From assembly GCF_001748385.1 (NCBI RefSeq), contig NZ_BCLI01000006.1, positions 1 through 64,000 of the forward strand: a stretch of DNA of 64,000 nucleotides, in the 5' to 3' direction. The first letter of the stretch is position 1; each line of letters opens with the position of its first letter. This document shows, piece by piece, positions 23,282 through 30,922 of the stretch. The position numbers and the translations under genes were made by a program. The notes under the pieces are model-generated. The model made no database searches, had not been told where the DNA came from, and saw nothing but the letters and a program-made list of their open reading frames with translations. The stretch is from Vulcanisaeta thermophila (GTDB taxonomy: Archaea; Thermoproteota; Thermoprotei; Thermoproteales; Thermocladiaceae).

Positions 23282-23695
23282 CTAATAAACCCTATGCAAC
23301 ACACGTGATAGGGAATCCACAATCACCAATAAATCACCAAGCCCCCTGGGCAAACCATCATTCACCCTGACCAGGTGTGACCTATCACGTGGCTTATCAC
23401 TATTCCCAAAGCTCTCAACCACTGGGTACTTACTCGTAAGGGCCCTCGCCAACTCATCCTCGGACAACCCAGTGACCACCACGGCAATGGGTTTGCAAAT
23501 CCCACGTAAGTGGTCCACGTGCCAGAAGGCCCTACCTAGCATTAGGAGGTGCCTGGTGACCCTGGCATGGCAGTAATTACCGCAGGACCCAACGTAAACG
23601 TAAACCCCACCATCAATCCTGAACGACCTACCACTCCTAGTCCTAACAACACCCTTGTGGCACATGAGGATCAGGAGGTAGCCCAACCTCACCAT
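23282..23695 (-). CDS. DUF123 (GIY-YIG-like) protein
   Basis: 137 residues. GYLLILMCHKGV, the FRIDGGVYVYVGSC strand-turn, ARVTRHL and FWHVDHLR match DUF123, a small family related to the GIY-YIG nuclease fold; G(I)Y and Y(V)G are replaced here by GVYVYVGS. Later KYPVVESFGNSD and DRSHLV fit the C-terminal part. Nuclease activity is unproven in the family; members are often near endonuclease III in archaea. Its start overlaps the end of the upstream membrane-anchored protein gene by 7 nt. Confidence 0.8.
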   Translation of the reverse strand: MVRLGYLLILMCHKGVVRTRSGRSFRIDGGVYVYVGSCGNYCHARVTRHLLMLGRAFWHVDHLRGICKPIAVVVTGLSEDELARALTSKYPVVESFGNSDKPRDRSHLVRVNDGLPRGLGDLLVIVDSLSRVLHRVY

Positions 23696-24357
23696 ACATA
23701 GGTCACATTTATAACCGCATACTCAGGTATGCCCCCACTGGTCAGCTGACCGGCATTGGTGGGTGGGTAGTAATATGCCTGGTAACACACAAACCCTATG
23801 TTTATTACGTAAGTGGCGTTGGGCAGAACCGGTATTATTAATTGCCCTGACTGACCCACCTCGTATGCGTAGGTATTTCCCTCGTAAGTGTAGGCCGCGG
23901 TCATGGGTATCGAGGGCATTGCCTGAGCCATTATGTAAATGTAGTACGAGACCTCCCCATTAATGACCTGGGGATTACTCAACCTATAATTAATGACCAG
24001 GTACCCGGGGCCCCTCGTCTGGAGGTTCACCTGGCGCGCTCCCTGTATTGAGTAGCCATTGCACTGGGCCAGGTTGAGGGTGGCGTTTAGGGTTAGGTTC
24101 GTCACTATGGCCTCGCTATGGGTTAACTCAACACCCGCACTGCCCAATTGGGCCTCGCACTCGCCTAGGCTTGCGTTTAATTCCTGGTACTTACTCAGTA
24201 GTTTTGTGTAGTTGGTGAGTAGTTGGTTGTAGGCGCCCTGGAGTTTTAAGTATGACTCCAGGTAATTACTGTAATTACCCATTAAGTGGATTAAGTAGGC
24301 TAGGGCCAGTGCTAGTGCCAGGGCCAGGGCTACCAATGCCAGGGTTCTTATGTTCAC
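23689..24357 (-). CDS. Membrane-anchored coiled-coil plus beta-domain exported protein
   Basis: Using GTG 24357 (VNIRTLALV...), 222 residues. A very regular signal-anchor of alternating Ala-Leu (LALVALALALALALAYLI) is followed by about 60 residues of heptad-rich coiled coil (YLESYLKLQGAYNQLLTNY and on), then a beta domain of about 110 residues with several N-x-S/T sites, facing outside the cell. Longer in-frame starts up to 24420 would put a charged, non-signal stretch first. Unknown family. The last 7 nt overlap the DUF123 gene. Confidence 0.65.
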   Translation of the reverse strand: MNIRTLALVALALALALALAYLIHLMGNYSNYLESYLKLQGAYNQLLTNYTKLLSKYQELNASLGECEAQLGSAGVELTHSEAIVTNLTLNATLNLAQCNGYSIQGARQVNLQTRGPGYLVINYRLSNPQVINGEVSYYIYIMAQAMPSIPMTAAYTYEGNTYAYEVGQSGQLIIPVLPNATYVINIGFVCYQAYYYPPTNAGQLTSGGIPEYAVINVTYVW

Positions 24358-24442
24358 GACGGATTCATGCCCCGGGTGTGTAATAAAGGTTAGTCTTTCA
24401 ATTACACAATAAATAAGCAATTAAAGGGGGGCCAAAGCGGTG

Positions 24443-27117: not shown

Positions 27118-28551
27118 TTAACCCGTGGCCGTGTAATTAACGGCAAGTATTGCCCAATCGGCATAGGCACCCCCAGTATTCCCGGCAACACCAAATACGT
27201 AGGTGCCACCGCTCGGTGGGGAAAATACTTGGTTTAGGTTTATGGGGGGTAGTGTGGCGTAGGCGCCCGTGTTTAGGTCCACGGCGATGCCGCTCACGGT
27301 GTTCGTGGTTGCATTGTACGTGACGCTGATGCATAGGTAATCCCCTGGGTTTGGCTTGAAGTAACCAGTGCCTACGCCATTCACCGAGGAAATCCTTAAC
27401 TGGGAATAAGCAGTCCCAGTGTTGCGCACAGCCCAGACATTCCACTGCCCAGTATAACCGCTCGCGGTATAGCCGTACTGCCAGTATGGGTCCCACTGAA
27501 CCACTATGTACCACGCTGCCGAGGCAGGTAGAATAACCTCGCCCTGTACTGGTGATTCTTGAGTACCGAGTTGCGGGGACGATACCAGGTAAGGTATTGA
27601 GTAATTGGAAGAAGAGGATACGGCCCATTTCTTTGGAGTTATGAAGAGGTAGAATTCATAACCGTCTGCTGGGTTTGATGTGCCGTTGGAGTAGGTGCCC
27701 AGTATCGTTATTGTGACCGACTGACCACTGGTGTACGTTTCGTTCCAGAACATGGCGCCCGCTGAGAATGTTCGAGCCGGCACCATCATTAGGACTGGTT
27801 GGTTAATGCTTGTGGATATTGGTGCCCAGTACTGTGGTGCCGTGCTGGGTGGGTAGTAGATTGGGTAAGACGACGTAGGGTTCTGATTAGTGTCACCTTG
27901 GTATACGTGTGGTACGTACCAGTTCTGCTGGCCGTTTAGGAGGTTCATTACGTTGAAGGATGGCTGCTTTAGGTTTAGGGTTTCTGTGAAGGTGTACGTG
28001 AACGTGATGCCGGTGGCTGGTGTGAAGTTGTAATTACCGGTTAATGTTACCGTGCCCGTGGTTGGGGTGGTTAGTGTGAGGCTGGTTAGGCTGGCCGTGT
28101 AGGAGCCTGTGGTTAGGCTCCATGTGCCGGTTCCTGGGTATACTTGCTGTGTGGTTCCGCCTATGTTTAGGTATGCCGAGGCTATGTAGGGGTTGGTGTT
28201 TATTTTTAGGGTTAATGCGCCGCTTGTTGATGTGGTGAATGAGAACATGGGTATTGGTATCGTCATCAACCTGTAACCGCTGGTTGTGCTCAGCGTAATT
28301 AGGGGTAGGTTTATGGAGCCGCTGAAGCCCGTGTTTGTTGGGGACCACTGGCTTTGTATTAGGAGTTGGCCGCATGGTGTTTGGTAAAGGAAGGAGCCCG
28401 GCGTTACCTTAATTGGTTGTGTGGTGCCCACCTTCATATTACCATTGTATGTATTTACCACATCACCAACGGTGACCAATGATAATAGCGCCGTGACCAG
28501 GGCCAGTGGTACTGCTATGGTCACTACCTGCTTATTCGCCCTCATACTCAA
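27118..28551 (-). CDS. Exported beta-rich surface protein, candidate filament-associated subunit
   Basis: 477 residues. A signal segment (VVTIAVPLALVTALLSLVTV) is followed by VGDVVNTYNGNMKVGTTQP, which aligns with the start of the 200-residue protein at 30119 (LADVVFVYQGVINVSTTSP); both also share TNTGF shortly after. The middle is Thr/Ser/Gly-rich beta sequence. The last 110 residues (GTGYFKPNPGDYLCIS ... GTYVFGVAGNTGGAYADWAI) look like a concanavalin/LamG-type sandwich. It is the last gene of a four-gene operon and overlaps the preceding gene by 20 nt. It could be a tip or adhesive subunit. Function is inferred. Confidence 0.7.
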   Translation of the reverse strand: MSMRANKQVVTIAVPLALVTALLSLVTVGDVVNTYNGNMKVGTTQPIKVTPGSFLYQTPCGQLLIQSQWSPTNTGFSGSINLPLITLSTTSGYRLMTIPIPMFSFTTSTSGALTLKINTNPYIASAYLNIGGTTQQVYPGTGTWSLTTGSYTASLTSLTLTTPTTGTVTLTGNYNFTPATGITFTYTFTETLNLKQPSFNVMNLLNGQQNWYVPHVYQGDTNQNPTSSYPIYYPPSTAPQYWAPISTSINQPVLMMVPARTFSAGAMFWNETYTSGQSVTITILGTYSNGTSNPADGYEFYLFITPKKWAVSSSSNYSIPYLVSSPQLGTQESPVQGEVILPASAAWYIVVQWDPYWQYGYTASGYTGQWNVWAVRNTGTAYSQLRISSVNGVGTGYFKPNPGDYLCISVTYNATTNTVSGIAVDLNTGAYATLPPINLNQVFSPPSGGTYVFGVAGNTGGAYADWAILAVNYTATG

Positions 28552-29302
28552 TCACCCTGGTTCCCGTCTTAAGTGCGTACTGAATTGCGTGCGTTAGTAC
28601 CACGGTGATAGCCTCCTCTGGGTTTAACCCCTGAACCCCATTGGTAACTATGGGCTCCCCACTCGCCCTGCTTATGGTTATCATGCCCTGGACCTCCTTA
28701 ATAATTAAGTCGCCAACCTTAATACCACCCTCGACTTCCTCATAGGGTATCCCAAGCCTCCTCAGTGACTCCTTAATGGCCATCATCGCACCCCTCGTCT
28801 GGTAAACCTCGGCAATACTCCACTCTTTAAGCCTCAACCACTTGGCCCCGGTCACGGCGTTGGCGAGGGTCAGTGCTAGGTAAATCGCTAGTACGTAGAA
28901 CGGCACGCCGAGGCTTGGTGTGTGGGGTAGCTGGACATAGATGTAACCGGTGGGTGTTGGCTGTATCACGTAGCCCCTAACCGCCATGTAACGCCACTGG
29001 AAGAGTATTGTGACAGCGAGCATTGCCACTGAGAGGACGGCGAGGAGTAGTGAGGTGTAGAGTGGGTACCTGGTGCTCCTCCAAACAGCGGGTATTAGTG
29101 GTGATGCTAGGGCGAAGATCCATATTGCGAATACCGTTGGTGGAACCACTAGGTACCTCAGGCCTAGGAAGTTCACTACGTAACCCACGGGCGTTAGGAC
29201 AATTGTTAACCCAGGGCCTGTAATACCATAAATCGGCAGTAGGAACCAGGAGATTACGAAGACCAGTGCCAGGACCACTTGAATCGTGACCTCGGGCCTC
29301 AT
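28532..29302 (-). CDS. Multi-pass membrane protein of the surface-filament operon
   Basis: 256 residues. About five hydrophobic segments fill residues 5-170, with an outside loop near 115-130; the last 85 residues form a soluble, probably cytoplasmic domain (AEVYQTRGAMMAIKESLRRL ... EEAITVVLTHAIQYALKTG). No peptidase Ser/Lys or prepilin-peptidase motif is visible. It lies between two genes for exported proteins, 4 nt after one and overlapping the next, so it may be the assembly platform or export factor for them. Family not recognised. Confidence 0.65.
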   Translation of the reverse strand: MRPEVTIQVVLALVFVISWFLLPIYGITGPGLTIVLTPVGYVVNFLGLRYLVVPPTVFAIWIFALASPLIPAVWRSTRYPLYTSLLLAVLSVAMLAVTILFQWRYMAVRGYVIQPTPTGYIYVQLPHTPSLGVPFYVLAIYLALTLANAVTGAKWLRLKEWSIAEVYQTRGAMMAIKESLRRLGIPYEEVEGGIKVGDLIIKEVQGMITISRASGEPIVTNGVQGLNPEEAITVVLTHAIQYALKTGTRVIEYEGE

Positions 29303-29306
29303 GGTC

Positions 29307-30104
29307 TCACCCGGTGAAGGTCTTGAAGATGACTGTGCTCACGGTTTGGTTCACGGTGGGGTAGTAATAGGTGATGTTCATTGGTAGGTAGAGCACATAC
29401 GCCCCACCACCCCTGAGGTTGCAATCATACACGTAGATGAACTTGTTCGTGCCGTAAAGTGGTGCTATGGGTATTGTGATGGTGACTGTGTGGTTGCCGG
29501 CTGGTACGTAGGCGCTTTCGTTAAATACCACGTTCATTGTGTTGATGATGTACTCATGACTTACCGCCGTGTATAGGCTCATGTTAACAATACCCCACAA
29601 CCTGACAGGGACTATTGATGCTACGTTAAAGGTAAGCGTTAGCACGCAATTGCTATAATTCACGCTTGATAGGTCCACGGTATTGACCACGTGGATTGGG
29701 ACCACGCTGAAGAAGGCTATCTCTGCAGGTGCCCCATTTAGGTAACCCTTGATCACTCCCTTCACGCCCACACTGCTTAGCATCGCGTAGCTAGGTTCTA
29801 GCTCCATTCTAGAGGTCGCCAGTGTTCCATTTATTATGGTTAAATTACCCAACTCACCAGTGTTCACAATAAACGCCCAGCCACCCGTTGGTGTGAAGTT
29901 GAAGCCGTTATTTACTACGCTCACGACTACGTAAACCCCACTGGTATTAACAATGACATTACTGGCCTGGGCGTAGGGCATGCTCTGGGGTGTGGAGATC
30001 CTTACTATGGAGGGTGCGATTAATGCCGTGCCGTATATTAGGATTAGGGATAATAGGATTAGGGGTATGGAGATAAGAAGGAAGATTTTAAAGGGTGAAT
30101 TCAT
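29307..30104 (-). CDS. Exported protein with one N-terminal membrane anchor
   Basis: 265 residues. A single N-terminal hydrophobic segment (FLLISIPLILLSLILIYGTA) leads into a beta-rich extracellular domain with about nine N-x-S/T sites and two cysteines (NCVLTL, YDCNLRGG). No family recognised. It is the second gene of the operon, 14 nt after the small subunit gene and 4 nt before the membrane protein, so it is probably an anchor or minor subunit of the same surface structure. Confidence 0.65.
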   Translation of the reverse strand: MNSPFKIFLLISIPLILLSLILIYGTALIAPSIVRISTPQSMPYAQASNVIVNTSGVYVVVSVVNNGFNFTPTGGWAFIVNTGELGNLTIINGTLATSRMELEPSYAMLSSVGVKGVIKGYLNGAPAEIAFFSVVPIHVVNTVDLSSVNYSNCVLTLTFNVASIVPVRLWGIVNMSLYTAVSHEYIINTMNVVFNESAYVPAGNHTVTITIPIAPLYGTNKFIYVYDCNLRGGGAYVLYLPMNITYYYPTVNQTVSTVIFKTFTG

Positions 30105-30118
30105 AGTTTTTAACCTTC

Positions 30119-30721
30119 TTATGGGGCTGGGACAGACGTGCTACTTATTACGTTGTATCCGAAGTTCACGGTTATAGTCTCTGTCTGCCCACTCGTCACC
30201 GGCGTGTTGGGCACTACCTTGAGGCTTACGTAGTAGGTGGTCCCGGCGCTTAGTGGGCAGCTGGTTGATGGTCCTGTTTGGACTGCGCCGTTGCTTATTA
30301 CTGTGAAGGTACACACATTAGCCCCAGTGGTGGGGTTTTGTATGTATATGATTAACGTGTTAACCATCGATGTTGTACCGCCTGTGGTGGCTGAGTTGTA
30401 GTACAGGTAGCCCGCGGTGTTCACGGTCAGGTTCCCAGCCTCGTAGTAGTACACAGCGCTTGAGTTGGTTACTGTTAGGCTTACTGTGAATCCCGTGTTG
30501 GTCCCTGTGAAGGTTATGTAAGGCGCAGCGGCAGTGTTTGTGGGACCTGCGTTGGGTCCTGTGCTGAATGTTAGTGGTGGGCTTGTGGTGCTAACGTTTA
30601 TTACTCCCTGGTAAACAAACACCACATCAGCAAGCACCACTGTCGCTACCACGGCCAGTGCCATCAGTGCCATTACCATTGCCCTCCTCCTTAAACCCCC
30701 GTGGTATATTCTATTGCTCAT
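30119..30721 (-). CDS. Candidate major surface-filament subunit (TasA/bundling-pilin-like)
   Basis: 200 residues. Basic N-terminus, signal segment AMVMALMALAVVATVVLADV, then a Thr/Ser/Asn/Gly-rich beta domain with one disulfide candidate (VCTFTV and SCPLSAG). Size, signal placement and composition resemble the archaeal bundling-pilus subunits of Pyrobaculum, which belong to the TasA superfamily and polymerise by donor-strand exchange. It is not a type IV pilin: no KG/(G) prepilin site followed by a long hydrophobic helix. It shares its N-terminal motif with the protein at 27118. First gene of the operon; a TTTAAAA box lies about 38 nt upstream. Family call is tentative. Confidence 0.7.
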   Translation of the reverse strand: MSNRIYHGGLRRRAMVMALMALAVVATVVLADVVFVYQGVINVSTTSPPLTFSTGPNAGPTNTAAAPYITFTGTNTGFTVSLTVTNSSAVYYYEAGNLTVNTAGYLYYNSATTGGTTSMVNTLIIYIQNPTTGANVCTFTVISNGAVQTGPSTSCPLSAGTTYYVSLKVVPNTPVTSGQTETITVNFGYNVISSTSVPAP

Positions 30722-30922
30722 ACTGCATCTTCTAGAGCTTCGTTACTTATCTCCTTTTAAACCTTTCTCTATTATTGCGTGTCTCTTTTAATTAGGCATT
30801 GTTATGGTGGCGGTTGTTTATGTAACTATACTTATTTATTGTATTGAATGCTTTAGTATAGCACTTTTTGTCGCATTTTTGACATAATAATTCTTAAATA
30901 TTCATCATTTTATGAAGACCAC

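Follow-up and report, generated by a model that had tools for sequence, protein, structure and literature searches.

A probable archaeal thread operon in Vulcanisaeta thermophila and a lectin-like partner proposed to end its filament

Introduction

What kind of surface filament, if any, is encoded by four tightly packed minus-strand genes of the archaeon Vulcanisaeta thermophila, and what could the large exported protein at the end of the cluster be doing there? The genes lie in a window of 64,000 nucleotides (contig NZ_BCLI01000006.1, positions 1 to 64,000), which is the whole stretch of DNA analyzed here. A first-pass annotation made from the letters alone had proposed a filament operon with two related exported subunits, akin to the TasA-superfamily bundling pili of Pyrobaculum and perhaps undescribed. 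All four open reading frames are present, and the locus is almost certainly an archaeal thread operon.

Threads, as described from Sulfolobus acidocaldarius, are 40-Å fibers held together by donor-strand complementation between subunits; a link from Asp24, the N-terminus of one subunit, to Asn57 of another, two subunits apart, has been proposed (PMC9715654). Vulcanisaeta homologs of the thread subunit and their conserved neighbors were already reported in 2022 (PMC9715654), which disposes of the suggestion that the system is undescribed. Published work lists the polarity of threads, their tip, and their assembly machinery as open questions (PMC9715654, PMC11607397), and Saci_0404, 0407, and 0408 have been called elusive.

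The features of the locus, in the order of transcription, are:

30755..30761, minus strand: TTTAAAA preceded by GAGAAAGG, a candidate TATA/BRE promoter of archaeal type, 34-40 nt upstream of the A start codon (read by eye)
30119..30721, minus strand: A, thread major subunit (Saci_0406 homolog), 200 aa (phmmer match to 7pnb, family profile, alignment)
29307..30104, minus strand: B, N-terminal membrane helix and two beta-sandwich domains, 265 aa (AlphaFold model, homologs adjoining A)
28532..29302, minus strand: C, multi-pass membrane protein, 256 aa (hydropathy, homologs adjoining A)
27118..28551, minus strand: D, exported tail, beta head, and L-type-lectin-like domain, 477 aa (profile, AlphaFold, Foldseek, BLAST)

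By these coordinates, A and B are separated by 14 nt and B and C by 4 nt, while C and D overlap by 20 nt. Nearby on the same strand (23689-24420) is an exported protein of 243 aa that has a coiled-coil-like stretch; it belongs to no Pfam or NCBIfam family and shows no sign of membership in the thread locus.

The main subunit

In a phmmer comparison, nearly the full length of the gene A product (residues 11-200) aligns with Saci_0406, the thread subunit of S. acidocaldarius (PDB 7pnb, E = 6.9e-19). A profile of the A family, built from 28 sequences including Saci_0406 itself, matches the thread subunit in the PDB with E = 3.4e-59. By sequence, then, A is a homolog of Saci_0406 (PDB 7pnb/8rzl), and the proposal of a filament operon with a main subunit is borne out. 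Its layout is that of a signal peptide, a mature N-terminus at Asp32, the tail DVVFVYQGVINVSTTSP, and a beta head. The cut site is deduced from the alignment, in which the end of the signal peptide and the start of the tail (VVLA/DVVFVYQG, the slash marking the cut) fall against VLVA/DVIYYYQG of the thread subunit.

The YYY motif that follows the cut, a reported but non-defining trait of threads, reads FVY in A, and it is also missing in several other loci that carry A, B, and C (for instance L098, in the alignment). As for the positions of the proposed isopeptide link, A keeps the aspartate (Asp32), and its Asn62 aligns with Asn57 in a gapped loop where relatives have Asn, Asp, or Ser. Compared with its S. 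acidocaldarius counterpart, A has three N-glycan sequons as opposed to five, and it has a cysteine pair (137/155) that Saci_0406 lacks; the pair is conserved in Vulcanisaeta and Caldivirga and could form a disulfide. The A profile also finds the AapB pilin in the PDB, weakly (8q30, 9e-5), and there were no matches pointing to a viral or phage origin of either A or D.

The kinship to TasA and to the Pyrobaculum bundling pili did not survive. There is a real likeness, in that the subunits of those pili (AbpA) and of TasA fibers are also Sec-exported, beta-rich proteins joined by donor strands. Against this, no sequence relation is detectable: the A profile matches neither TasA nor AbpA in the PDB at E<=10, the TasA family PF12389 matches no member of the A family and is absent from this genome (while the control search with it did find Bacillus subtilis), and the thread subunit is matched directly at 3.4e-59. 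At the level of sequence we reject membership in the TasA/AbpA family; as a family assignment that reading is refuted, and we give it next to no weight.

Other families of the phylum have proteins more distantly related to the thread subunit, 187-216 aa long and with tails that start ASVF or AGVL (L108-L116 and L118); some of them are followed by a 400-aa relative. Neither B nor C was detected at these loci, which possibly represent an undescribed branch of thread-like fibers.

The neighboring genes

A search for homologs by BLAST and profile in 34 loci shows a neighborhood of the thread type: B is the counterpart of 0407/0408, C that of 0409, and D that of 0404, while a separate 0405 is missing. 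As the first-pass annotation had anticipated, the gene order is conserved in relatives: A-B-C-D is kept in Vulcanisaeta and Caldivirga, with named loci in Vulcanisaeta sp. JCM 14467, V. distributa JCM 11216, Caldivirga sp. MU80, and Caldivirga UBA161, among assemblies several of which have open reading frames broken by frameshifts. The S. acidocaldarius locus (L102) carries a reading frame for A whose aligned sequence matches 7pnb; the genes there are, in order, a 442-aa homolog of D, a 179-aa protein, A, B split in two, and a C that has diverged. This order fits Saci_0404, 0405, 0406, 0407 plus 0408, and 0409 as given in PMC9715654, the locus numbers being assigned here from the order. Homology shows that B, C, and D belong to the three partner families found around Saci_0406 in S. 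acidocaldarius. The resemblance extends to the main subunit, in which the signal peptide is followed by an N-terminal Asp and a tail; the two loci differ in that the Vulcanisaeta genes form one tight cluster on one strand, B is a single gene, and the separate cap gene of the 0405 type is missing.

Protein B is predicted with good confidence (pLDDT 89.7) as a helix (residues 4-35) followed by strands to residue 264 that make two beta-sandwich domains. Its homologs adjoin A at the f1, f31, and f24 loci. On the evidence of the split into two reading frames in S. acidocaldarius, B corresponds to Saci_0407 and Saci_0408, two halves of one gene, which agrees with the fusion of 0407 and 0408 reported for other species (PMC9715654). 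Among PDB folds the model finds weak and generic Ig-like matches only, donor-strand pilin fusions among them, and B is not classed with the FGL/FGS chaperones of chaperone-usher pili. Profile-profile comparison detects no kinship of B with A. We predict B to be a membrane-tethered pair of beta sandwiches that serves as an anchor or a chaperone. A cysteine pair of B (Cys153/Cys228) is conserved in Vulcanisaeta and Caldivirga and may form a disulfide.

Protein C, judged by hydropathy, has about 4 helices and a cytosolic C-terminal domain of ~100 aa, and by order and homology it matches Saci_0409. Full-length C is found in 18 of the 398 genomes of the phylum, 17 of which also have A; it was not found at the f24 loci, which carry A, B, and D. 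It is the dedication of C to thread loci that makes a membrane component of the thread assembly site the best reading of this protein, a guess drawn from association. The C-terminal domain of C (28532-28830) weakly resembles the C-terminal part of ~185-aa Sulfolobales proteins (L155:1547-2107, L156:1414-1971; E 2.5e-8 to 4e-5) that have a winged-helix-like N-terminus, and a link of this domain to regulation is possible.

The large exported protein

Protein D aligns with its S. acidocaldarius counterpart over 406 aa (30.5% identity, E=1.7e-32), so it is by sequence a full-length homolog of Saci_0404. It consists of a tail, a beta head (about residues 30-195), and an L-type-lectin-like domain (about residues 200-477). 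The AlphaFold model, built from 15 sequences (pLDDT 78), has residues 1-42 disordered, then the beta head to about 195, then the second beta domain.

The N-terminal pattern that the first-pass annotation saw in the first and last products holds up: BLASTP finds 43% identity over 35 residues (E=0.002, as a single comparison), and profiles agree. In the PDB, the D profile matches Saci_0406 (7pnb) with its N-terminal part at E=2.1e-4. Profile-profile scores between A and D are 48-52 (34.5 for one pairing of subsets), as compared with a maximum of about 22 in 40 column shuffles. Most of this likeness lies in the exported tail, and the head alone scores barely above shuffles (~21 vs 19); the string TNTGF common to both proteins probably contributes a minor share. 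The tails of D also resemble the tail of A from their own locus more than expected, a weak effect (p=0.01 within groups, 14 loci).

For the other end of the protein a LamG-like domain had been suggested, and together with the match to 7pnb the fold search sustains the picture of a second large subunit with a LamG/ConA-like C-terminal domain. The model of D finds legume lectins, ERGIC-53, and Emp47 in Foldseek at E 1e-7 to 1e-6 with TM (target) of about 0.5-0.6, matches that we assign to the C-terminal domain by match length and domain sizes. This domain is therefore predicted to have the L-type (legume-like) lectin fold, a ConA-like jelly-roll. PA14/GLEYA, hit by homologs of D in Pfam as short partial stretches (one above the curated cut-off), was rejected as its identity, the fold search favoring an L-type lectin. 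D keeps one cysteine per domain, Cys60 and Cys407, as does the S. acidocaldarius protein, and the two could form a disulfide. A 967-aa surface-type protein of the same genome (L154:2372-5275, contig C1) has a relative of the lectin-like domain and no thread tail.

The end of the filament

The model that we favor, a thread operon with D as a lectin at the end of the filament, has as a whole a probability of about 0.6. A would be exported by Sec, cut before Asp32, and would polymerize as the N-terminal tail of each subunit enters the open sheet of its neighbor. D has a tail of the same kind and a beta head, but its chain runs on into the lectin-like domain, and for this reason we propose that D closes the chain: its tail would go to the last A subunit, and the lectin-like domain would be on display. 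B would be tethered to the membrane on the periplasmic side, as an anchor or as a chaperone for subunits, and C would make up the membrane portion of the assembly site and carry a cytosolic domain. Two observations weigh against the model: a Caldivirga-type genome (G050) has B-C-D but no longer A, and C was not detected at the f24 loci.

Some indirect support for D ending the fiber comes from its tail tracking that of A, and from the gene slot after C, which holds either D or a shorter protein that resembles the D head and has no lectin. The shorter version is found in a second type of Vulcanisaeta thread locus (L090:5147-9615; L091:5765-10241; L092:5808-10303), which we take to be that of Vulcanisaeta moutnovskia. 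These loci have the A-B-C core in the same order as here; they differ by a 335-aa relative of A with an insertion, upstream of A, and by having after C, in place of D, the D-head-like protein of 178 aa and a 142-aa A-type head without a tail. The 178-aa protein looks cap-like, and the tail-less head could be what occupies the other end of the fiber. Both locus types occur in one genome (G383).

Could D act outside of the filament altogether, as a lectin that is secreted or surface-bound and expressed together with threads, its tail kept from a duplication of A? Large surface proteins that have no thread tail and no relation to threads also contain the D-type lectin-like domain, so D could serve another role, and the similarity of its head to A is weak. 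On the other hand, the tail is the best conserved part common to D and A, and every tailed D lies next to A or, where A has been lost, next to B-C. Tailed D is found in 14 of the 398 genomes, and A in 13 of those 14; the hypergeometric values for co-occurrence with A (3e-15 for D, 1e-20 for C) overstate the significance because the genomes are related. We regard a D outside of the filament as quite unlikely.

If D ends the chain, at which end does it sit? For the cap Saci_0405, Gaines et al. predicted a donated tail and the lack of an acceptor groove, and left polarity open (PMC9715654). A tail-donating cap fits either polarity, so D could instead be the cell-proximal end of the thread, its lectin binding S-layer glycans and mooring the fiber to the cell wall, with tails pointing outward. 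However, the membrane-tethered B already offers an anchor, and the lectins at the ends of bacterial pili are usually distal; we find a cell-proximal D unlikely. A lectin on a tail-donating cap rather suggests a distal tip. D would most likely be the distal adhesive tip of the filament, and the tails of A would then point towards the cell, as in hypothesis 2 of Gaines et al.

The closest analogy to such an arrangement is with chaperone-usher pili and their two-domain adhesins of the FimH type, donor-strand fibers with a lectin-bearing terminal subunit, as D would be here. The differences are several: there is no sequence kinship, no outer-membrane usher was found among the neighbors of the locus, and the lectin of D follows the pilin-like part rather than preceding it. 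FimH has no donor tail, whereas D keeps one. More tentatively, and at somewhat less than even odds, we propose a fuller reading: that D/Saci_0404, a thread cap joined to an L-type lectin, fixes the polarity with tails cellward, reverse to that of chaperone-usher pili, and that B and C form a usher-free assembly site in which the cytosolic domain of C links assembly to regulation.

Exchange of the locus

The stretch 27128-30157, which covers genes D, C, and B and runs a few codons into the end of A, has 83% DNA identity to a genome of the genus Caldivirga (G050, L096:6158-9186). The TruB/Cbf5 protein of the present genome is 78-82% identical to the full-length Vulcanisaeta copies and ~59% to those of Caldivirga, and the matches to B, C, and D in other Vulcanisaeta are only ~32-64% identical. 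Since the B-C-D DNA is Caldivirga-like although the host is a Vulcanisaeta by TruB/Cbf5, the thread locus has probably been exchanged horizontally. The Caldivirga-type genome keeps B-C-D without A, of which it appears to have lost all but the 3′ end.

Implications

The thread system was already known, and what appears to be the new element here is a lectin-bearing partner of the thread subunit. In the thread literature searched, supplementary files excepted, we found no mention of a lectin-bearing subunit, of how B, C, and D map onto the S. acidocaldarius genes, or of the exchange of the locus. The authors of the thread paper predicted structures for 0404-0409 and may have seen parts of this (PMC9715654). 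The comparison names three conserved partner families of threads, and it merges 0407 and 0408 of S. acidocaldarius into a single protein whose fold is well predicted. A further outcome is a concrete candidate for the tip, 0404, in a genetically tractable archaeon, so that the orientation of threads and their part in adhesion become questions open to knockout and mass spectrometry.
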